A DNA stretch of 64,000 nt from contig JAEEQN010000006.1 in assembly GCA_016285345.1 (NCBI GenBank), forward strand, positions 1 through 64,000, written 5' to 3'. The position numbers and the translations under genes were made by a program. This document shows positions 3,441-13,442 of this stretch, in pieces; position 1 is the stretch's first letter, and every line of letters begins with the position of its first letter. Under the pieces are notes generated by a model that was not told the origin of the DNA, searched no databases, and saw nothing but the letters and a program-made list of their open reading frames with translations. The stretch comes from Victivallales bacterium (lineage in GTDB: Bacteria; Verrucomicrobiota; Lentisphaeria; Victivallales; UBA1829).

Positions 3441-4719
3441 AGAAGTCGTGATCCGTCTGGAAGGAGTCGGCAAGGAATATCCGCGTTTCTCGACGCGGAA
3501 GGAATTGCTTTGGAATCTGCTGTTCCCGTTCCGGTTCAAGAGCAAACGGTTCACCGCGCTGGAGCCTCTCTCCCTGGAAATCCGCAAGGGGGAGTGCGTC
3601 GGCATCATGGGCGTGAACGGCAGCGGAAAAAGCACTCTGTTGCAGATGATCGCCGGGACGCTGTATCCGACGAGCGGGAAAGTCTTCATCGAAGGGCGCG
3701 TGGCCTCCCTGCTGGAACTCGGCAGCTGGATCGACGCGTCCGACACGGGCAGGCAGAACATCTACACGGCGGGGTATTCCCGCGGCCTCAAAAAAGCCGA
3801 GATCGAAGCCCAGATCGACGGCATCATCGAATTCGCCGAGATCGGCGACTTCATCGACCAGCCGGTCTCCACGTATTCCACCGGCATGGTGATGCGCCTG
3901 GCGTTCGCCACCTGCATTTATCTTCAGGCGGACATCCTGCTGCTGGACGAGATCTTCGCGGTAGGCGATTTTCATTTCTCGCAGAAATGCATCGCGTTCC
4001 TCCGCGAATACATCAGGGACAAGACCGTGCTGCTGGTCAGCCACGACTGCAATATTATCTCCATGCTCTGTTCCCGTGCGATCCTGCTGAATCATTCCCG
4101 GCTGATTGCCGACGGCGCGCCGCGAGAGATCACCGAGCGGTACCTGGAGCTCTGCTACGGAGAAAAACAGGACGTCAAGGTCTCGGGGAAACAGGAATGG
4201 AATCCCGCGGAACCGGACTTCCGCAAGGGCGACCCGGTCGAGGCGACCGGATTTCTCCCCGACGAACGTTCCTTCGGCGAAGGCGGCGCGGACATTCTGG
4301 AAACCCTTCTCTCTTCCGACAACGGCGAAACGATGGGGCGGGCACGCGGCGGCGAAGCGGTCAAGTTCATGGTCCGGCTTCTGGCGCGGAAACGCCTCGA
4401 AATGCCCGCGGTCGGATTCCGGGTGCGTTCTCCGGAGGGGATCAACCTGTGGGGCGACACCAGCATCCCGGGCGCGATTCCCGTTCTGGAGAAAGGAGAT
4501 GAAATGGAGGTCGTATTCCGCTTCGTCCTGCCGCGCCTGGCAAACGGCACATACTCCGTCGGCGTGGCGGTCTCGACCGGAAAACTGGAAGATCATCATA
4601 TTCAGGTCTGGAACCACAACGCCATGACGTTCCAAATCAACTCAAGCTATCCGCTCCTGGGGGCCATGGTCGGCCTGCCAATGTCAGCGATCGAATGCCG
4701 CGAGGTTAAACAATCATGA
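3430..4719 (+). CDS. wzt: Polysaccharide export ATPase with C-terminal cargo-binding domain (Wzt-like)
   Basis: ATPase partner of the preceding permease. Residues about 1-245 form an ABC domain with Walker A GVNGSGKS at 61-68, a degenerate signature VSTYSTGMVMRLAF, Walker B ILLLDEIFAVGD and the switch His in LLVSHD. Residues about 265-425 match the position and beta-rich look of the Wzt C-terminal domain, which in studied systems recognises the finished or capped end of the glycan before export. The start ATG 3430 is preferred over TTG 3424 because GAGGAGG (3413-3419) is 10 bases upstream. The stop overlaps the next gene (ATGA). The presence of a C-terminal domain suggests chain-terminus recognition, consistent with the methyltransferase two genes on. 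Confidence 0.9.
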   Translation: MSSEEVVIRLEGVGKEYPRFSTRKELLWNLLFPFRFKSKRFTALEPLSLEIRKGECVGIMGVNGSGKSTLLQMIAGTLYPTSGKVFIEGRVASLLELGSWIDASDTGRQNIYTAGYSRGLKKAEIEAQIDGIIEFAEIGDFIDQPVSTYSTGMVMRLAFATCIYLQADILLLDEIFAVGDFHFSQKCIAFLREYIRDKTVLLVSHDCNIISMLCSRAILLNHSRLIADGAPREITERYLELCYGEKQDVKVSGKQEWNPAEPDFRKGDPVEATGFLPDERSFGEGGADILETLLSSDNGETMGRARGGEAVKFMVRLLARKRLEMPAVGFRVRSPEGINLWGDTSIPGAIPVLEKGDEMEVVFRFVLPRLANGTYSVGVAVSTGKLEDHHIQVWNHNAMTFQINSSYPLLGAMVGLPMSAIECREVKQS

Positions 4720-7700
4720 GCCATAAAAAAGACGAGATTCTGCGTATTTACAACCCGGCCATCCTGCCGGATTCGGTGGATCAGACAAACACACCGAAAC
4801 AGTTCCCGCTGTTCCCGCACACGTCCGCGCACGAGGTGGAACACTACTGCGCCGGCCTGGAACACAATTTGATCCTTCTTCAGAGGGAAATCAACCGCCT
4901 GCGGCTTCAGACCGCCGAACTCCGCAGACAGGTCAATGCGCTCAGTTCGGACTCTGCGAAATACACGGTCGAACGCACGAATCTGGCAAACGAGATCGAA
5001 GCGCTCCGCTGGCAGGTCGAATACGACAAACAGCTGATGCACGACATCCGCACGTCGCGCGCCTGGGGCGTCGCACGCCTTTTCCATTTCCTCTACGGAT
5101 ACCTGACCTTCAACAAAGAGATCATCAAGGAATCCAAGGCATACGTCGACGACGTTACGGTCGCACAGGGGAATTCCGCCTCGAAACTCTCCATGTTCAT
5201 TTACTACATGCTGAACGGCGCGGCGAAAACGTCGAAGCGTTTCAGCAAAGCCGCGGAAGCCGTCATTTCGTCCGGCCCGGACTCCACGCCGGACCAGATC
5301 ACCTACCAGTCCTGCTATCAGGACGACGAACCGTTCCAGGAGATTCCGCGCGACGTCAAGGCCATCACGTTCTATCTCCCGCAGTTCCACACGTTCCCCG
5401 AAAATGACGAATGGTGGGGCAAGGGGTTCACGGAATGGACCAACACGAAGAAGGCCAAACCGCGCTTCCCCGTCCACTATCAGCCCCGCACGCCGCACAA
5501 GGATATCGGCTATTACGACCTGTCCGACGTCGAGACCATCAAAAAACAGGTCGCGCTCGCCAAAGCGCACGGCATTTCGGCGTTCTGCCTCTACTACTAC
5601 TGGTTCGACGGCAAGAAACTCATGGAAAAGCCGCTCGAGCTCATCATGGCGCACCCGGAGATCAAATTCAATTTCTGCCTCTGCTGGGCAAACGAAAACT
5701 GGACCCGGACATGGGACGGCCAGCAGAATTCGGTCCTGATCCAGCAGAACTACTCCGAAGAAAACGACGTCAACTTCATTAAGGACCTCAAGCGCTATAT
5801 CACAGATCCGCGCTATCTGCGCTGTCAGGGCAAACCCGTAATCCTGATTTATCATGCGAAGATCCTGCCGGATCCCAACAAGACGTTTGCCACCTGGCGA
5901 ACCTGGTGCCGGAAGAACGGCGTCGGAGAAATCCAGATATGGTCCTGCCGCACGTTCATCAAGAGCAAGGAATTCAAGATCCTCGACGAGGTCGACCGTG
6001 AAGTCGAATTCCCGCCGCACATGGTTTCCGACCTCGAGATGTTCCCGCCGTCCAGATTCCATGCGTTCAAGGACGATGGCTTCTATTACAATTATCAAAA
6101 AATCATCTCCGATCTTTACCACAGGAAGACGTTCGCCGACGAGTCCCCGTATCCCTTCTACCGCTGCGCCATGCTCGGCTGGGACAACTCCTGCCGCCGC
6201 GAGACCGGATATTCCGTCTGGCAGTATTTCTCCCTCAGTTCCTACCACTACTGGCTCAGAAACATCCTGGAATACACCCGCAAGAACTTCATCGAGAAGG
6301 AACGCTTCATCTTCATCAACGCCTGGAACGAATGGGCGGAAGGCACCTATCTGGAGCCGGACGAATGCTTCGGCTACTCCAGCATAAATACGACGACCCG
6401 CGCCCTCTGCGATCTCCCGCCGCTCCCGGAATACGAAGTCCTCGCGCCCGCGGAATCCACCGCCGTCCAGCCGGGGAAAGTCCTCCTCCACATTCATGTC
6501 TTCTACCCCGATCTCATGGGCGAGATCATCCACTACCTGAACCAGATACCGTTCAAATTCGACTGCGTCATCACGACGGACAGCCGCCGCAAACGCACCG
6601 TGATCATGGGGCGCCTGGATGAAAACCCGGTCTCGAACTGCGAGAAACACACGGTCACCGTAACGCGCAACATCGGCCGCGACGTCGCGCCGTTCTTCGC
6701 GTCCTGCTCCGATCTGATCGACAAGTACGATTTCATCGGTCATTTCCACACCAAGAAATCCATGACCGTCAACTGGGGCCACGAATGGCGCCACTACCTC
6801 CTGGACCAGATGCTCGGCTCCCCGGAGACCGTCGCCGCCATCTTCCGGCGTTTCGACCGCGATCCGCACATCGGACTCTACTTCCCCTCCGCCATCCCGA
6901 CCATGCGCGACTACATGAACTGGGAAAAAAACCTCGACCGCTGCGTGGAACTCCTCAAAGCCATGGGGCTGCCCGCCTCGCTTCCGCAGAAACCGGAGTT
7001 CCCGGTCGGCCAGATGTTCTGGGCACGTACCAAAGCGATTGCGCCGCTTTTCCGCGAAGGCATCATTGATACGAACAAATTCGAAGAAGAAAACTATCAG
7101 ATTTCCGACACGCTGGCACATGCCGTCGAACGCATTTGGAAATACGTCGCGCAGGGGGCCGGATACACCACGCTTTCCGCCGTCGTGCCGCCGCCCGTCC
7201 CGGCGAAGAAAAAGGCCGAACCCGGCGAAGAGAGGGAATATGTGAAACGCCTTGCGGTTTTCATCCATTACGATGCGGAACAGAAGGTCTCCAACGCCGA
7301 CATGTATCTGCTTACCGAACTGAAGAAATGCGCCGACATCGTGTTCGTGAGCAACAGCGGCCTGGTCCGGGACAGCATGAAAAAGGTCTCCCGCATCGCG
7401 ACAAAGGTCATCACGCGCGAAAATGTCGGCTACGATTTCGGCGCATGGCGCGACGCGCTGGAGGAAACCCGTCTCACCGGATACGACGAGCTTGTCCTCC
7501 TGAACAACAGCGTCTACGGACCGATGTACTCCTTCCAGGAGATTTTCGCCCGCATGCGCTCGAACCCCGCCGACTTCTGGGGCATGACCGAATTTCCAGA
7601 GACCGACAATCCGAGGCGCGAAGAGGCGAAGTGGCTCCCGAACGGGATTATCCCGCGTCATATCCAGAGCTACTTTCTTGTTTTCCGCCAGCAGGTCTTC

Positions 7701-8051
7701 ACCTCCGAAGCGTTCAAGGAGTTCTGGAAGAACGTCAAAAATGAAACCACGCTTCCGGCCGTCGTCGCGAACTGTGAAACGCGCCTCAGCAACTATCTGG
7801 AAAAAGCCGGATTCAAATCCGATATCTACCTCCGCGCGTCCGGCCGGCTTCAGGACGTCGACAAGATCACGCCGGAATACAACGCCATCTACTGCAGGCC
7901 GCAGGACTTCCTCATCCTCGGATTCCCGTTCCTGAAGAAGAACATCTGCTACTACCTGCGGCAGCCTGAAATCAACGAGACCGTCCATCTGATCTCGCGT
8001 TTGTACAAGTATCCAACCAATTATATCAAAATAACCGCAAGAACGAGGTGA
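4716..8051 (+). CDS. Three-domain glycan assembly protein: WbsX-like domain plus two RgpF-like domains
   Basis: An 1,111-residue cytosolic protein with no membrane segment. Residues about 45-110 are a coiled coil (LLQREINRLRLQTAELRRQV). Residues about 214-560 match the WbsX/GH99-like glycosyltransferase family: AITFYLPQFHTFPENDEWWG, FTEWTN, CLYYYWFDGKK, CLCWANENWTRTWDG and INAWNEWAEGTYLEPD. From about 587 and again from about 843 there are two rhamnan-synthesis-F-like domains, each starting with a hydrophobic strand plus H or IHYD and containing the N-x-G-x-D motif (TVTRNIGRDVAPFF; ITRENVGYDFGAW). It overlaps wzt by 4 bp. It probably extends the exported polysaccharide, possibly with more than one linkage; the sugars cannot be read from sequence. 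Confidence 0.82.
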   Translation: MSHKKDEILRIYNPAILPDSVDQTNTPKQFPLFPHTSAHEVEHYCAGLEHNLILLQREINRLRLQTAELRRQVNALSSDSAKYTVERTNLANEIEALRWQVEYDKQLMHDIRTSRAWGVARLFHFLYGYLTFNKEIIKESKAYVDDVTVAQGNSASKLSMFIYYMLNGAAKTSKRFSKAAEAVISSGPDSTPDQITYQSCYQDDEPFQEIPRDVKAITFYLPQFHTFPENDEWWGKGFTEWTNTKKAKPRFPVHYQPRTPHKDIGYYDLSDVETIKKQVALAKAHGISAFCLYYYWFDGKKLMEKPLELIMAHPEIKFNFCLCWANENWTRTWDGQQNSVLIQQNYSEENDVNFIKDLKRYITDPRYLRCQGKPVILIYHAKILPDPNKTFATWRTWCRKNGVGEIQIWSCRTFIKSKEFKILDEVDREVEFPPHMVSDLEMFPPSRFHAFKDDGFYYNYQKIISDLYHRKTFADESPYPFYRCAMLGWDNSCRRETGYSVWQYFSLSSYHYWLRNILEYTRKNFIEKERFIFINAWNEWAEGTYLEPDECFGYSSINTTTRALCDLPPLPEYEVLAPAESTAVQPGKVLLHIHVFYPDLMGEIIHYLNQIPFKFDCVITTDSRRKRTVIMGRLDENPVSNCEKHTVTVTRNIGRDVAPFFASCSDLIDKYDFIGHFHTKKSMTVNWGHEWRHYLLDQMLGSPETVAAIFRRFDRDPHIGLYFPSAIPTMRDYMNWEKNLDRCVELLKAMGLPASLPQKPEFPVGQMFWARTKAIAPLFREGIIDTNKFEEENYQISDTLAHAVERIWKYVAQGAGYTTLSAVVPPPVPAKKKAEPGEEREYVKRLAVFIHYDAEQKVSNADMYLLTELKKCADIVFVSNSGLVRDSMKKVSRIATKVITRENVGYDFGAWRDALEETRLTGYDELVLLNNSVYGPMYSFQEIFARMRSNPADFWGMTEFPETDNPRREEAKWLPNGIIPRHIQSYFLVFRQQVFTSEAFKEFWKNVKNETTLPAVVANCETRLSNYLEKAGFKSDIYLRASGRLQDVDKITPEYNAIYCRPQDFLILGFPFLKKNICYYLRQPEINETVHLISRLYKYPTNYIKITARTR

Positions 8052-8054
8052 ATC

Positions 8055-9341
8055 ATGAGCGAAATCGCAAAAGACAAAAAGCGTGACATCGTACGCAGAA
8101 GGGTATTCATGAAGAATGTTCCCGATTACGCAAAACTTTCAGGTCTTGAAATCGGCGCGCTTTGCTCCCCTCTGCTCACGAAGGAAGAATCCAATGTCAA
8201 GTACTACGACATCTTCCCGAAGGAAACCCTGATCGAACATTTCCAGGAGTTCTACCCCGGCAGAACGTTCGTGGACGTCGACTTTGTCGCCAGAACGCGT
8301 TCGCTTTCCGAAGTGCTCGGCGACGTCAAGTTCGATTATTTCATCGCGAACCATGTCATCGAGCACATTCCGGACTTCATCGGCTTCTTCAAGGCCGTCT
8401 ATGAAAGCCTCAACGAAAACGGAAAGTTCTTCCTCGCCATTCCCGACCGCCGTTTCACGTTCGACATCGACCGGTCCGAAACCTCAGCCGGACATCTCGT
8501 CGTCGATTATGAAAACAACGGCAGCGTGGACGCCGCGGAGCACATCCTCGATGCTCTGATCTACCATCAGGAAAGAGATAATCTTAACATCTATTGGAGC
8601 GACATCGAAAGCCAGCGCTACAATTTTGTCCATCATCACCACGTTTTCAACTATGAAACCTTCCTGAGCCGGATCATACGTCCGCTGATCCGCATGCGCT
8701 ATTTCCCGTTCTCGGTTCTCGACTGCCACTACGAGCCCGATCTCGACAATGAATTCGACATCGTCCTTGAGAAATGCACCGACTGGGACAAGATCCATAT
8801 CCTCGGCACTAAAGTTCCCGTTCAGCCGCCGCAGGACGAATCCAGCGTGAACATCTACGATTTCAGGCTCCAGATGTCCCAGATCACGAAATCCGGCTGG
8901 TTCGATCCTCTTTGGTATCTCACCACATATCCCACGGTGCGCATCAGCGGCCTGAACCCTCTCAAGCACTATTACTTCTGGGGCGCTTACCACGGATTCA
9001 ACCCCTCCGAACGTTTCGACTCCAAGTATTATCTGGAATCCAACCCGGACGTCTGTCAGGCCGGACTGAATCCGCTCTGGCATTATCTCCACAACGGGGC
9101 ACAGGAAGGCCGTCGGCCCCTGCCGCCGGAGTCGGAGTCCCCGGTACAGACATCCGCCGCAGGCACGGACGAGGGAAAAGGACAGGACGGCCAGCCCTCC
9201 GGCGCGAACCTTTCCGCCGAAACAGAAAAAACTCCTGCCGGGACCGCCTCCGCGGAAGCACCTGCTGAAGCCGGGGAAACTTCTGCCGGGACTGCCGCGG
9301 CGGATTCGGCCTCCCGCCGTAACCGCGGGAAAAGGAAATGA
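8055..9341 (+). CDS. SAM-dependent methyltransferase with C-terminal 'YYL..NPDV' repeats
   Basis: Residues about 28-235 look like a class I methyltransferase: LSGLEIGALCSPL near the start, then FDYFIANHVIEHIPD and NENGKFFLAIPDRR, the usual post-motif pattern of methyltransferase type 11/23. Residues about 278-358 carry two or three short repeats (GWFDPLWYLTTYPTV, then YYLESNPDVCQAGLNPLWHY, ending GAQEGRRPL) often attached to glycosyltransferases. The last 70 residues are an Ala/Glu/Pro-rich low-complexity tail ending in basic residues. It lies 3 bp after the WbsX-RgpF gene. A reasonable inference is methylation of the glycan end as a stop signal read by the Wzt C-terminal domain; methylation of another sugar is also possible. 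Confidence 0.75.
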   Translation: MSEIAKDKKRDIVRRRVFMKNVPDYAKLSGLEIGALCSPLLTKEESNVKYYDIFPKETLIEHFQEFYPGRTFVDVDFVARTRSLSEVLGDVKFDYFIANHVIEHIPDFIGFFKAVYESLNENGKFFLAIPDRRFTFDIDRSETSAGHLVVDYENNGSVDAAEHILDALIYHQERDNLNIYWSDIESQRYNFVHHHHVFNYETFLSRIIRPLIRMRYFPFSVLDCHYEPDLDNEFDIVLEKCTDWDKIHILGTKVPVQPPQDESSVNIYDFRLQMSQITKSGWFDPLWYLTTYPTVRISGLNPLKHYYFWGAYHGFNPSERFDSKYYLESNPDVCQAGLNPLWHYLHNGAQEGRRPLPPESESPVQTSAAGTDEGKGQDGQPSGANLSAETEKTPAGTASAEAPAEAGETSAGTAAADSASRRNRGKRK

Positions 9342-9393: not shown

Positions 9394-10317
9394 ATGAGCA
9401 AGACGCAGGTCAGCGTTCTCCTCTCCGTTCACGGAGACTCCATATTCCTGAAGGACTTTCTGGATTCGCTCGCGAATCAGTCCTTCAGGGATTTTGTACT
9501 GCTGTGCCGTTTCGACGGAGTCCCCTCGCCCGCGATCCTGTCGCTCGTTTCCGGTTTCCCGTCCGCCGTCGTCCTCCCGGATCAGACGCACTACAACGTC
9601 ATCTCCTCGTACCAGCGTCTCCTGGATGCCGCAAAAGAAACGGACACGCCGTATTTCATGTTCGCGGACCAGGACGACGTCTGGCATCCGGACAAGATAG
9701 CCCGGAGCGTTCAGAAGATCAGGGATGCCGAATCCCGCCGCCCGGCGAAAACTCCTGTTTTGGTTCACACCGACCTTCGTGTCGTGGACGAACACCTGAA
9801 GCAGATCGCGCCGTCCATGATTCGCTACCAGTGTCTGAATCCGGCCCGGGTCTCGCTCGCGGACATCATGATCCAGAACAACGTCACAGGCTGTACGACG
9901 ATCTTCAACCGTGCGCTGGCCTCGCTTGCCCGGATTCCGGAGGAGGCCATCTGCCATGACTGGTATCTTGCGCTCACCGCGGCGGCGTTCGGCACGATCG
10001 TTTTTCTCCCGGAAAGCACGGTCGACTACCGCCAGCATGAGGACAACGTTTATGGCACAGTCCCGCGAAAAGGCCTTCTCAGGCATTTCTTCCAAAGGCG
10101 GCATCTCCATGAGAGAGTCCGATTGACCCAACGGCAGGCCGGGGCGTTTCTGGACCATTTCCGCGCGAATCTTTCCGCGGACAAGACCCGCATTCTGGAA
10201 GACTGGAGCCGCTGTCTGACCGAGGCTTCCTACTTCAAACGTCTCGGTACGGTCTGGCGGCACGGCTTCAGGAAGAATGACTGGCTTCGCACCCTCGGTC
10301 TCTGGTGGGCGGCATGA
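9394..10317 (+). CDS. Family 2 glycosyltransferase
   Basis: A 307-residue GT-A fold enzyme. It opens with VSVLLSVHGDSIFLKDFLDSL, the usual GT2 N-terminus, has the nucleotide-sugar/metal motif in MFADQDDVWHPDKI, and a later CHDWYLALTAAAFG block followed by VDYRQHEDNVYG, a pattern seen in rhamnosyl and related transferases. No membrane segment. It follows the methyltransferase by 52 bp and overlaps the next transferase by 4 bp (ATGA). It probably adds one sugar to the lipid-linked repeat unit or adaptor; donor and acceptor are unknown. Confidence 0.87.
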   Translation: MSKTQVSVLLSVHGDSIFLKDFLDSLANQSFRDFVLLCRFDGVPSPAILSLVSGFPSAVVLPDQTHYNVISSYQRLLDAAKETDTPYFMFADQDDVWHPDKIARSVQKIRDAESRRPAKTPVLVHTDLRVVDEHLKQIAPSMIRYQCLNPARVSLADIMIQNNVTGCTTIFNRALASLARIPEEAICHDWYLALTAAAFGTIVFLPESTVDYRQHEDNVYGTVPRKGLLRHFFQRRHLHERVRLTQRQAGAFLDHFRANLSADKTRILEDWSRCLTEASYFKRLGTVWRHGFRKNDWLRTLGLWWAA

Positions 10318-13088
10318 AAACAGCGGTCGTCGTCCCCACGCTCAACGCCGTAAAACGCGGCTGCTGGTACGAACTGCTTCGCGCCATCGCGGAACAGCAG
10401 CTTCAGATTGATCTGAAACTGATCGTCGACAGCGATTCCTCCGATCAGACGGTAGAACTCGCCGCCGCGCTCGGCTGGAAATGTCTCCGGCACGACCGAC
10501 GGAACTTCAACCACGGCACAACCCGCGCCCGCATCGTCCGCTACCTCGCATCAAAGGGGTTCGACACGGTCATTTTCCTCTCGCAGGACGTTGTGCTGTC
10601 GGAACCGGGCACGCTCAAAAAGCTCACGGATTTCCTCTGGATGCATCCGGAAATCTCCGGCTGCTGCGGCAAGCAGATCAGTCTCCATGAAAAAACGCTC
10701 AACGCATGGCAGAGGGAACGCTGTTATCCGAACGCTTCAAGGATAAGGACAGCCGCGGACATCCCGCGCGACGGTCTGATGGCGGCGTTTTTCTCCAATG
10801 CTTTCGCCGCCTGGAAGATCCGGGATCTGATCCGGTTCGGGAATTTCCCGAAAACGGATTTCGGGGAAGACACGCTCCTCGCCGCGCACATTATTGAAAA
10901 CGGCGGTGCTGTCGGCTATTGCGCCGAGGCGATTGCCATCCACGAACACTCCAACGCACCGTTCGAACTGTTCCGGCGAGGCTGGCAGATCGGCAGTTTT
11001 CATCGCCGCAATCCCGACCTTCTGCGGAAATTCAGGGATTCTTCCTTGATCGCGCGGAAAAGCATCCCCGCGGGCGTAATTCTCCCTCTCGCAATCAAAG
11101 CCATGGGTTATTGTTCCGCGCGGTTCCGCGACCTCGTTCTGCCCGCGCTGCTTTTTATCCTGCTCTGGTTTCTGCTCGCACCATGCATCATCCTTGATGA
11201 TTATCCGCTCCCGGACATCGCGACCCGTTACGCCCCCATGGCGGAAGCATTCGCACGGCATGACTGGCGTTTCGCGTTTCATCCGCGCATCACACCGCTC
11301 CTCCCCGTTTCCGCAGGAATGATCGCGTCCATTCTCCGATGCGACGGTTTCCTCGCCTGCAAACTCGCCTCCACGCTCTTCCTTTCGCTTTCCATTTTCC
11401 CCCTCTACGCCGCGACGCGCCGTCTCTTCGGACGTCCGATGGCGGTCCTCACGTCGCTCCTCTTCATCGCCTGCCCGTACATCAGCCGCTTCGGATACTA
11501 CGGAAGCCGCGAATCCGGCACGATCTTCGGGCTTCTTCTCTGCGTTTATGCCGCCGTACTGCTTTCGAAGAATCCGCGCAAATTCGCCCCGTGGGGCTGG
11601 TTCGCCCTGGGAGAAACAGTCATTCTCCTGAGCCGCGGAGACATGCTCCTCTTCGCCGCGCTTCTGTTCACGGCGCTCTTTATTTGGGACTGCATCCGGT
11701 TCCGCATCCCGTTCCGCGGCATCCTCACCGGCTTTGCCGTCTTTATCCTTATACTCCCGACACTCTGTTGCAACAGACGCATGATCGGCTATCCGGTCCT
11801 GGATACACGCCATACGACGATTTTCAAATTCGTTTCGCAGAGGATTCCGACTCTGAAACAACTTGTGTATCCCGATCCCGTCATGCCGGTCGACATTGCC
11901 GCACCGGCTGCGGAAACGCTCCTCACAAAGCCCTTCCACGGGGAATCCGGCTCCGTGGATTACGCAAACGTGCCGGATACGAACGTGCCGGACACGGGCA
12001 TATCGGATACGAACGCGACGGACACGGGCATATCGGATACGAACGTGCCGGACACGGGCATATCGGATACGAACGCGCCGGACACGGGCGTATCGGATAC
12101 GAACGCGCCGGACACGGGCCCGGACACGGCCACAGCGGATACGAACGCGACGGACGCGGGCATATCGGATACGAACGCGCCGGACGCGGGCCCGGACACG
12201 GCCACAGCGGATACCGGCGTGCCGGACACATCCCCGTCCGTCGTTCGGATACCACAACGCTCGTTACGGCATGGGCTGAGTAAATTTCTGAAAACAATCT
12301 GGGGCGGCATTTTCCCGTTCTTCCTCTTTTTCGCCGCAATCGGAATCGTCGGACGCATTCGCCGTCGCCAATGGACCGGATTCGATACGCTCCTGATTAT
12401 GACATTCCTTGTATTTGAGCTTCTCGCGGCGTTTCAGGTGTGTCTCTTCTATGGCGTGCTCGCGACTTCCAGACGGTATCTGTTCATCGGCATCCCGCTT
12501 TATCTGCCGTATGCGGCGCTCGGATTCCGCGATTTCCGGCGTGTCCTCACGGATCTCACATTCGGAAAAACTGTTGCCGCGTTTCTCGCCGTCCTTCTCT
12601 GCGCAGCTTTCTTTTATAAGCTCTATTCTCCGATCTTCACGGAGTTTTTCCACGATTCCGCCAAAGGCATGGAACGCGACATCCAGCTTGCCGCGGCGGA
12701 TTGGATCCGCTCGGACTGGGACAGGCTCCCCGCATCACGGGAAACAGCCCGCCTGAACTTTTTGAAATGCGACCAGTATCAATCGGGGAAACGTCCCCTC
12801 ATCCGCACGACCGGCCAATGGTCCCGCCTCGGCTTCATGGCAGGCGGACAGGACTATCCCGGATTCTTCCCCGTACGGGGCATCCGCCCCGACTATATCG
12901 TCCTTCCCGCGGAAACTTTCGAAGAAAACGGTTCTGACGGCGGCATCCCGGAATTCATCGGTTTTGAAAAAGACGTTCTCCGGGATCCCGGAGCCGGAAC
13001 TCCGCGGTACCGGAAAGTCCACGTCAACAGACTTGACGGCATCACGTTCGCCGTTTTCAGGAATATCGCGTTGCAACCCGGCGACTGA
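10314..13088 (+). CDS. Fusion of a family 2 glycosyltransferase with a membrane GT-C-like glycosyltransferase
   Basis: A 924-residue protein. Residues about 1-260 are a GT2 domain of the RfbN/rhamnosyltransferase kind (VVVPTLNAVKRG, IVDSDSSDQT, FNHGTTRARIV, FLSQDV). From about 270 a series of hydrophobic helices begins, with the loop ILDDYPLPDIATRYAPMAEA and the GYYGSRESGTIFGLLL segment resembling ArnT/PMT-like membrane transferases that use polyprenyl-phosphate sugars. Between two membrane blocks, residues about 552-640, lies an acidic 10-residue repeat array, placed by topology in a periplasmic loop. ATG 10314 is preferred because it overlaps the previous stop. Likely role: adding one sugar in the cytosol and a second in the periplasm, or extending and decorating the exported glycan. 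Confidence 0.78.
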   Translation: MKTAVVVPTLNAVKRGCWYELLRAIAEQQLQIDLKLIVDSDSSDQTVELAAALGWKCLRHDRRNFNHGTTRARIVRYLASKGFDTVIFLSQDVVLSEPGTLKKLTDFLWMHPEISGCCGKQISLHEKTLNAWQRERCYPNASRIRTAADIPRDGLMAAFFSNAFAAWKIRDLIRFGNFPKTDFGEDTLLAAHIIENGGAVGYCAEAIAIHEHSNAPFELFRRGWQIGSFHRRNPDLLRKFRDSSLIARKSIPAGVILPLAIKAMGYCSARFRDLVLPALLFILLWFLLAPCIILDDYPLPDIATRYAPMAEAFARHDWRFAFHPRITPLLPVSAGMIASILRCDGFLACKLASTLFLSLSIFPLYAATRRLFGRPMAVLTSLLFIACPYISRFGYYGSRESGTIFGLLLCVYAAVLLSKNPRKFAPWGWFALGETVILLSRGDMLLFAALLFTALFIWDCIRFRIPFRGILTGFAVFILILPTLCCNRRMIGYPVLDTRHTTIFKFVSQRIPTLKQLVYPDPVMPVDIAAPAAETLLTKPFHGESGSVDYANVPDTNVPDTGISDTNATDTGISDTNVPDTGISDTNAPDTGVSDTNAPDTGPDTATADTNATDAGISDTNAPDAGPDTATADTGVPDTSPSVVRIPQRSLRHGLSKFLKTIWGGIFPFFLFFAAIGIVGRIRRRQWTGFDTLLIMTFLVFELLAAFQVCLFYGVLATSRRYLFIGIPLYLPYAALGFRDFRRVLTDLTFGKTVAAFLAVLLCAAFFYKLYSPIFTEFFHDSAKGMERDIQLAAADWIRSDWDRLPASRETARLNFLKCDQYQSGKRPLIRTTGQWSRLGFMAGGQDYPGFFPVRGIRPDYIVLPAETFEENGSDGGIPEFIGFEKDVLRDPGAGTPRYRKVHVNRLDGITFAVFRNIALQPGD
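11967..12233 (+). repeat. In-frame minisatellite, 30-bp unit with 42-bp variants
   Basis: Seven near-identical direct repeats in the GT2/GT-C fusion gene. Units of 30 bp at 11982, 12012, 12042, 12072 and 12144 encode N-(V/A)-(P/T)-D-(T/A)-G-(I/V)-S-D-T. Units of 42 bp at 12102 and 12174 carry an insert encoding P-D-T-A-T-A. All lengths are multiples of three, so copy-number change would keep the frame. The encoded stretch is acidic and probably unstructured. Confidence 0.95.
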
Positions 13089-13136: not shown

Positions 13137-13442
13137 TTATGCGCATACAAACTCGCATTTATGGATGCGAGGTAATTCCGATTTTAAATGTTCCTGCGCC
13201 GCAACCAGATCATAGGCTGTTTGGAGATTCAGCCAGAAATCCGGCGTCGTTCCGAAAAACTGACTCAGCCGGAGCGCGGAATCAGCCGTAATCCCGCGCC
13301 GTCCGCGAACGATCTCGTTCACGCGATGACAAGGCACTCGCAATTCCATGGCAAGCTTGTTCTGACTTATCTTCATCGGTTTCAGGAATTCCTCCAGCAG
13401 GATTTCCCCTGGATGAGGATTGATGATCTTGTTTTTGCTCAT
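13137..13442 (-). CDS. higA: HigA-type antitoxin, XRE-family helix-turn-helix
   Basis: A 101-residue antitoxin. The N-terminal NPHPGEILLEEFLKPM followed by a helix-turn-helix (ISQNKLAMELRVPCHRVNEIVRG) and the WLNLQTAYDL segment are characteristic of the VapI/HigA family. It binds and neutralises the toxin and, with it, represses the operon. It starts 11 bp after the toxin stop with a clear AAGGAG site 7 bases before the ATG, so the order is toxin first, as usual for higBA. It converges on the glycosyltransferase gene with a 48-bp gap. Confidence 0.94.
   Translation of the reverse strand: MSKNKIINPHPGEILLEEFLKPMKISQNKLAMELRVPCHRVNEIVRGRRGITADSALRLSQFFGTTPDFWLNLQTAYDLVAAQEHLKSELPRIHKCEFVCA

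Follow-up and report, generated by a model that had tools for sequence, protein, structure and literature searches.

We think it likely that the tandem array of the window, the 64,000-nt stretch of DNA analyzed here, is the expanded joint of a GT-C glycosyltransferase that was encoded by two genes and has been re-fused, and that it acts as a tolerant periplasmic tether. Relatives encode the GT-C part as two overlapping genes, one for helices 1–7 with the catalytic-type loop and one for the C-terminal membrane half, with the division between them in a predicted periplasmic loop (EL4). A net insertion of 353 nt (2 mod 3) would have removed this boundary and placed both halves in one frame, and in-frame duplication of a 15-bp repeat would then have grown the insert, most of which is now repeat. 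The product would be a hydrophilic, acidic and probably disordered tether, which would keep both modules on a single polypeptide. Coordinates are given in Table 1.

Table 1. Features of the fused gene and its cluster, in window positions.
Feature	Position	Strand	Basis
WbsX/RgpF glycan-synthesis gene, same cluster	4716..8051	+	Pfam
Methyltransferase gene; C-terminal tail with repeat arrays in four sister species	8055..9341	+	Pfam, cluster comparison
Upstream GT2 gene, same cluster	9394..10317	+	Pfam
Fused GT2 + GT-C gene	10305..13088	+	927 codons from GTG 10305; ORF, Pfam
GT2-type glycosyltransferase domain, residues 6–225, predicted cytoplasmic	10320..10979	+	Pfam PF13641/PF00535; membrane side inferred
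N-terminal GT-C module, residues 278–490, ~7 helices	11136..11774	+	Hydropathy, Pfam, profile alignment
Inserted linker region, holds the array	11919..12275 (approximate limits)	+	Net 353 nt more than split sister genes
Tandem array of acidic D-[TA]-x repeats (18 units, each 15 or 12 bp)	11967..12233	+	TRF, codon-wise reading
CTG in place of the split sisters' C-half ATG start	12276..12278	+	Alignment with sisters
C-terminal (variable) GT-C module, residues 658–927	12276..13085	+	Separate gene in 3 sister species

The likely true start of the fused gene is ATG 10314, which overlaps the stop of the upstream GT2 gene as ATGA. The preliminary description had placed the array in a membrane glycosyltransferase, and the gene does look like one: its product matches PF00535 (GT2) above the cut-off, PF13641 just below it (26.9 of 27 bits), and PMT_2 (PF13231) over residues 346–481, also just below (E 3.1e-5; 24.7 bits against a cut-off of 26.1). 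PMT_2 scores above the cut-off in the homologue L020 (32.9 bits), whose alignment matches that of the window protein with an hhalign E of 1e-80, and it is matched by 11 of 16 single-ORF homologues; by way of L020, sequence profiles place the window protein in the GT-C class (PMT_2/ArnT type). Searches of PDB sequences gave no match in two cases and, in a third, a best E of 0.029 confined to the GT2 part. Four sister species have the genes of the surrounding glycan cluster (WbsX/RgpF, methyltransferase, GT2) in the same order.

Hydropathy and charge suggest about seven helices within residues 278–490, followed by a 174-residue loop (491–664) that contains the array, and then the C-terminal membrane half, which has three helices above the cut-off, an assumed fourth (~725–742) and a C-terminal domain. 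Some of the helix assignments were manual: in the N half six segments exceed the cut-off, residues 430–441 were added though below it, and segment 254–272 was left out of the crossings although it passes. Acidic residues (24) outnumber basic ones (12) in the array loop, and the loops taken as cytoplasmic are basic; the assignment of membrane side uses these basic loops and the first external loop (EL1). These data suggest that the array lies in external loop 4 on the periplasmic side, in agreement with the loop proposed earlier, and one crossing more or fewer would make it face the cytoplasm. EL1 (residues 297–331, LPDIATRYAPMAEAFARHDW..FHPR) matches the RYA..GDW region of ArnT, and this stretch aligns with E. 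coli ArnT by hhalign (77.9%, E 1.8e-5). Enzymes of this class have a catalytic acidic residue in EL1 and use a polyprenyl-phosphate sugar. A putative counterpart of that residue is the Asp of the 'RDVAxRYAPMAEAFAxGDW' consensus (D42 in the top row of the alignment), which all 16 aligned homologues share and which the window protein also has.

AlphaFold2 gave a poor model of the whole protein (pLDDT 43), and the N-half model is also poor (pLDDT 54); for the N half the best Foldseek match was chain A of the human OST-A complex (E 0.21). When the N-half model was re-aligned to 501 PDB chains, all of the best 15 rows came from structures of OST/STT3-type enzymes, ArnT, Pmt4 or AglB or from a translocon structure that contains OST. 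Their Z scores of 7.3–9.3 lie under the level that the tool treats as safe for helical folds, and unrelated chains appeared from rank 16 (Z 7.3). This comparison is consistent with a GT-C fold, without being proof of it.

GT-C enzymes are described, in a report on Gpi14 (PMC12653191), as a conserved module of TM1–7 joined to a variable module of TM8 onwards, and EL4 has been described as the joint between them; by helix count, the gene boundary discussed below would fall in EL4. The window protein shares with PMT/ArnT-type enzymes the PMT_2 match, the EL1 region, about seven helices, a large loop and a C-terminal module, but differs in having a GT2 domain fused in front and a low-complexity tandem repeat in the loop, which in relatives is where the enzyme divides into two genes. 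Those eukaryotic PMTs whose EL4 holds MIR domains (PMC12331936) likewise carry a large insert between TMH1–7 and the C-terminal module, whereas the window insert, at a presumed former gene boundary, is a minisatellite that looks disordered and no folded domain. There is also a resemblance to three-component periplasmic glycosylation (lipid-linked donor synthase, flippase and GT-C; PMC11127046) in that a cytoplasmic-type transferase is paired with a GT-C, but here the two are in one chain. A role of the GT2 domain in making a lipid-linked donor would be speculative; its comparison with ArnC gave a probability of 15.7%.

TRF rows cover 11967–12229 with a top score of 287, which bears out the coordinates first given for the array; the second-best array of the window scores 59. 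A chance origin was rejected, because 40 dinucleotide-preserving shuffles of the window gave TRF scores of at most 69. The array can be divided, as it was earlier, into seven repeats of 30 or 42 bp, but in frame there are 18 units of 12 or 15 bp, each opening with GAT or GAC, and the in-frame character asserted earlier holds for all of them, every unit length being a multiple of three. The 15-mers alternate between DTN-x-[PT] and D-[TA]-G-x-S, with degenerate ends, two 12-mers (D-[TA]-G-P) and two DTATA units. Higher-order periods of 30 bp and 72 bp are present, and a 72-bp duplication is identical at 65 of 72 positions. No exact repeat inside the array exceeds 44 bp, so short-read assembly should resolve the array, although the sequence comes from a binned genome (completeness 83%, contamination 4%), the single genome of its species, and the copy number may therefore be wrong. 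Within this 2.78-Mb assembly all 11 exact matches to the unit pattern, and three of four one-mismatch matches, lie in the array, and blastn with the 361-bp array region returned only the self match; we thus rejected the idea of an element repeated across the assembly, there being no second array of this unit.

Comparison with relatives, at one genome per species and with near-identical records possibly absent from the set, shows that the array sits where other species have a gene boundary. Apart from the window, the genus offers four full-length orthologues. Three of these (G001, G004 and G008; RUG10770, RUG11954 and RUG555) encode the enzyme as two ORFs split at the array position, and the fourth (G005) is fused. 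Of the 12 genus relatives, G009 is truncated where its contig ends, and seven others gave no full-length orthologue. Relatives that carry a name are RUG555 'Lentisphaerae', RUG12414, RUG11954, RUG10770 and an uncultured Victivallis, the RUG prefix denoting what we take to be rumen bins. In the three split sisters the stop of the N half overlaps the ATG of the C half, as ATGAGTGA in two and ATGAATGA in one. Further split homologues are found in G032, G132 (L037), G003, G006, G007, G010 and G026, in at least G057, G081, G086, G093 and G105 among 137 genomes of the order, and in at least G163, G178, G188 and G310 among 240 genomes of the phylum. The total is at least 19 split loci, 3 in sister species and 16 further homologous loci, with L098, which repeats L037, counted once; L003, which gave no match, was left unclassed, as were L008 and L010, where the contig ends after the first half. 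The family also occurs in one piece elsewhere, with 27 single-ORF rows in one tree.

At all 19 split loci read, the nearest start overlaps the TGA stop, as ATGA/GTGA or ATGAxTGA, with an overlap of 4 nt in 15 (three of them GTGA) and 8 nt in four. These lengths are counted from the nearest start, the true C-half starts being predicted, and several loci have other in-frame starts (an ATG 11 nt past the first base of the stop in L104 and L105; an ATG at +2 in L037). By their overlapping stop and start the split relatives have the arrangement of a translationally coupled pair, and the two halves putatively form one enzyme, whose activity and substrate are likewise putative. The proportion of overlaps is high compared with the ~15% of overlapping gene pairs given for most groups in PMC6728339, though related rows are not independent. 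The ATGA-type overlap is shared with the termination–reinitiation gene pairs treated there, but in the split relatives it divides an enzyme that is single in other homologues. Sequencing error was rejected as the source of the split, since the same kind of overlap recurs at 19 loci in divergent tree rows. In the literature accessible to our searches we found no description of a split GT-C of this kind, and searches for a minisatellite in a glycosyltransferase, or for overlap, fusion and linker, found nothing.

The distance from GACAT to TT[TC]CT[GT] across the joint is 40 nt in the three split sisters, 393 nt in the window and 150 nt in G005. The net excess over the sisters, 353 nt and 110 nt, is 2 mod 3 in both, and two frames thereby become one, as a frame-joining fusion needs. 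Where the sisters have the C-half ATG the window has CTG, and G005 has no ATG in frame; a stop codon of the old upstream frame persists in both. The overlapping TGA of the sisters corresponds to TAA 12281–12283 of the window, in frame +2. The linkers are unlike, with D-T-x repeats in the window and a Pro/Glu/Thr/Ala stretch in G005. The array is absent from orthologues that are 80–87% identical over the aligned part, in keeping with the recent expansion proposed from the similarity of its units. That the array probably lies at a gene-fusion joint was missed by the preliminary description and is visible only with the sister species.

An alternative explanation is that the window gene is still split, with a frame error in the low-complexity stretch and the C half starting at CTG by reinitiation. 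The array region is open in all six frames, and in the old upstream frame a TAA stands where the stop used to be; one erroneous indel would therefore be enough to mask such a split. We nevertheless regard this as improbable, because the ATG has become CTG and because G005, with an unlike linker, is also a single ORF and also has no in-frame ATG.

Phylogenetic trees agree with the fusion reading. In a tree with 27 single-ORF rows, which leaves out L029 and L032, the fused rows fall inside a clade with six split rows (100/100); in a later tree that also leaves out L025 and G073 they again fall inside a clade with six split rows (100), and in another gene tree inside a clade with five split rows (99/100). 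The window and G005 linkers were left out of the tree alignments. Since the fused rows are nested among split rows, fusion looks like the derived state. The gene trees disagree on whether there was one fusion event or two: the window and G005 pair weakly in the tree with 27 single-ORF rows (69/32), in the later tree (22) and in a DNA tree (69), but not in the tree with five split rows or in the protein tree beside the DNA tree, and flanking genes put the window beside the split L035 (100/98). The split may have arisen once or repeatedly, with the split rows grouping weakly (52/79) in the tree with 27 single-ORF rows and forming three groups in the later one.

For window pairs, dN/dS is 0.13–0.16 in the N half and 0.21–0.28 in the C half, showing that both halves are constrained and that the fused gene is not decaying. 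The array itself behaves otherwise. Read in the frame of the gene, pairs of the four clean 30-mers differ by 0 synonymous and 10 non-synonymous changes (0 and 21 with a fifth 30-mer that runs into a shorter unit), and the 72-bp copies by 0 and 7. The differences are silent more often in frame +1 (4 and 4 for the 30-mers, 4 and 2 for the 72-bp copies) than in the gene's own frame, probably by chance at so few sites. The unit-difference pattern is no evidence for the gene's frame inside the array, and we read the array, from its few sites, as a linker free of protein-level constraint. This would fit neutral growth, in which a fused linker bound only by hydrophilicity and frame was enlarged by replication slippage with no benefit; the tail of the adjacent methyltransferase, too, is rich in repeats that vary from species to species. 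On the other hand, Asp is first and Thr or Ala second in 18/18 units, which could reflect weak constraint, again over few sites; we consider the case for neutral growth evenly balanced.

It had been proposed that slippage would change loop length without breaking the enzyme, as a possible tuning device for surface glycan. The first part fits the comparison, in that relatives have either a gene boundary at this position or 110 nt extra (G005) rather than 353. A contingency locus, in which slippage varies unit number within a population and loop length tunes acceptor choice or activity on a surface glycan, would accord with units that are similar and multiples of three, with loop lengths that differ between species, and with the key role in PMT acceptor recognition given to EL4 in PMC12331936. 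On the single genome of the species we think it unlikely, as relatives have no covalent link at the array position and whole-unit changes cannot switch frame, with all frames open, and hence give no on/off state. Since relatives are encoded as two chains or with a shorter linker, fine tuning of the linker length is improbable. The part taken by EL4 in acceptor recognition (PMC12331936) could also point to the array as a glycosylation acceptor in its own right, or an acceptor mimic, near the active site, with 20 Thr and 9 Ser among the 109 residues 542–650; we judge this highly improbable given that the split sister genes have no such segment.

In addition to the tether reading for this gene, we lean slightly towards a broader view in which GT-C enzymes of several families of the phylum are natural two-subunit enzymes, a seven-helix and a variable module, that two sister species have welded into one chain, the weld here being an expanding frame-neutral minisatellite. 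Natural split and re-fused pairs offer a handle on whether GT-C modules fold as independent subunits, and on the linker length that a periplasmic glycosyltransferase tolerates, and a stop-free repeat can bridge two overlapping genes.

Several further observations were made in and around this locus. An HTH_3 gene (HigA-like by eye; window 13137–13442, minus strand) lies between the GT-C gene and a BacA-family gene, which in the sisters L033 and L035 are only ~25–30 nt apart. The C-terminal tail of the methyltransferase has species-specific Ala/Glu/Pro repeats in four sisters, with 9- and 12-bp units among others (L033 4916–5047; L034 4970–5025; L035 4934–4998, 100% identical; L036 4976–5041); the corresponding window tail (9045–9341) is of low complexity and TRF finds no array there. 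In L104–L107 (G188, G310, G163 and G178, outside the order) the upstream split gene starts GT2-like by eye (LIVGxLGR) and continues into the GT-C part, so the combination of GT2 with a split GT-C may be widespread. Finally, G036 has a pair of equally scoring GT-C copies at a distance of 1.36 Mb (G036:C1:1102958–1104559 and 2465293–2466894), each directly after a separate match to the GT2 part.
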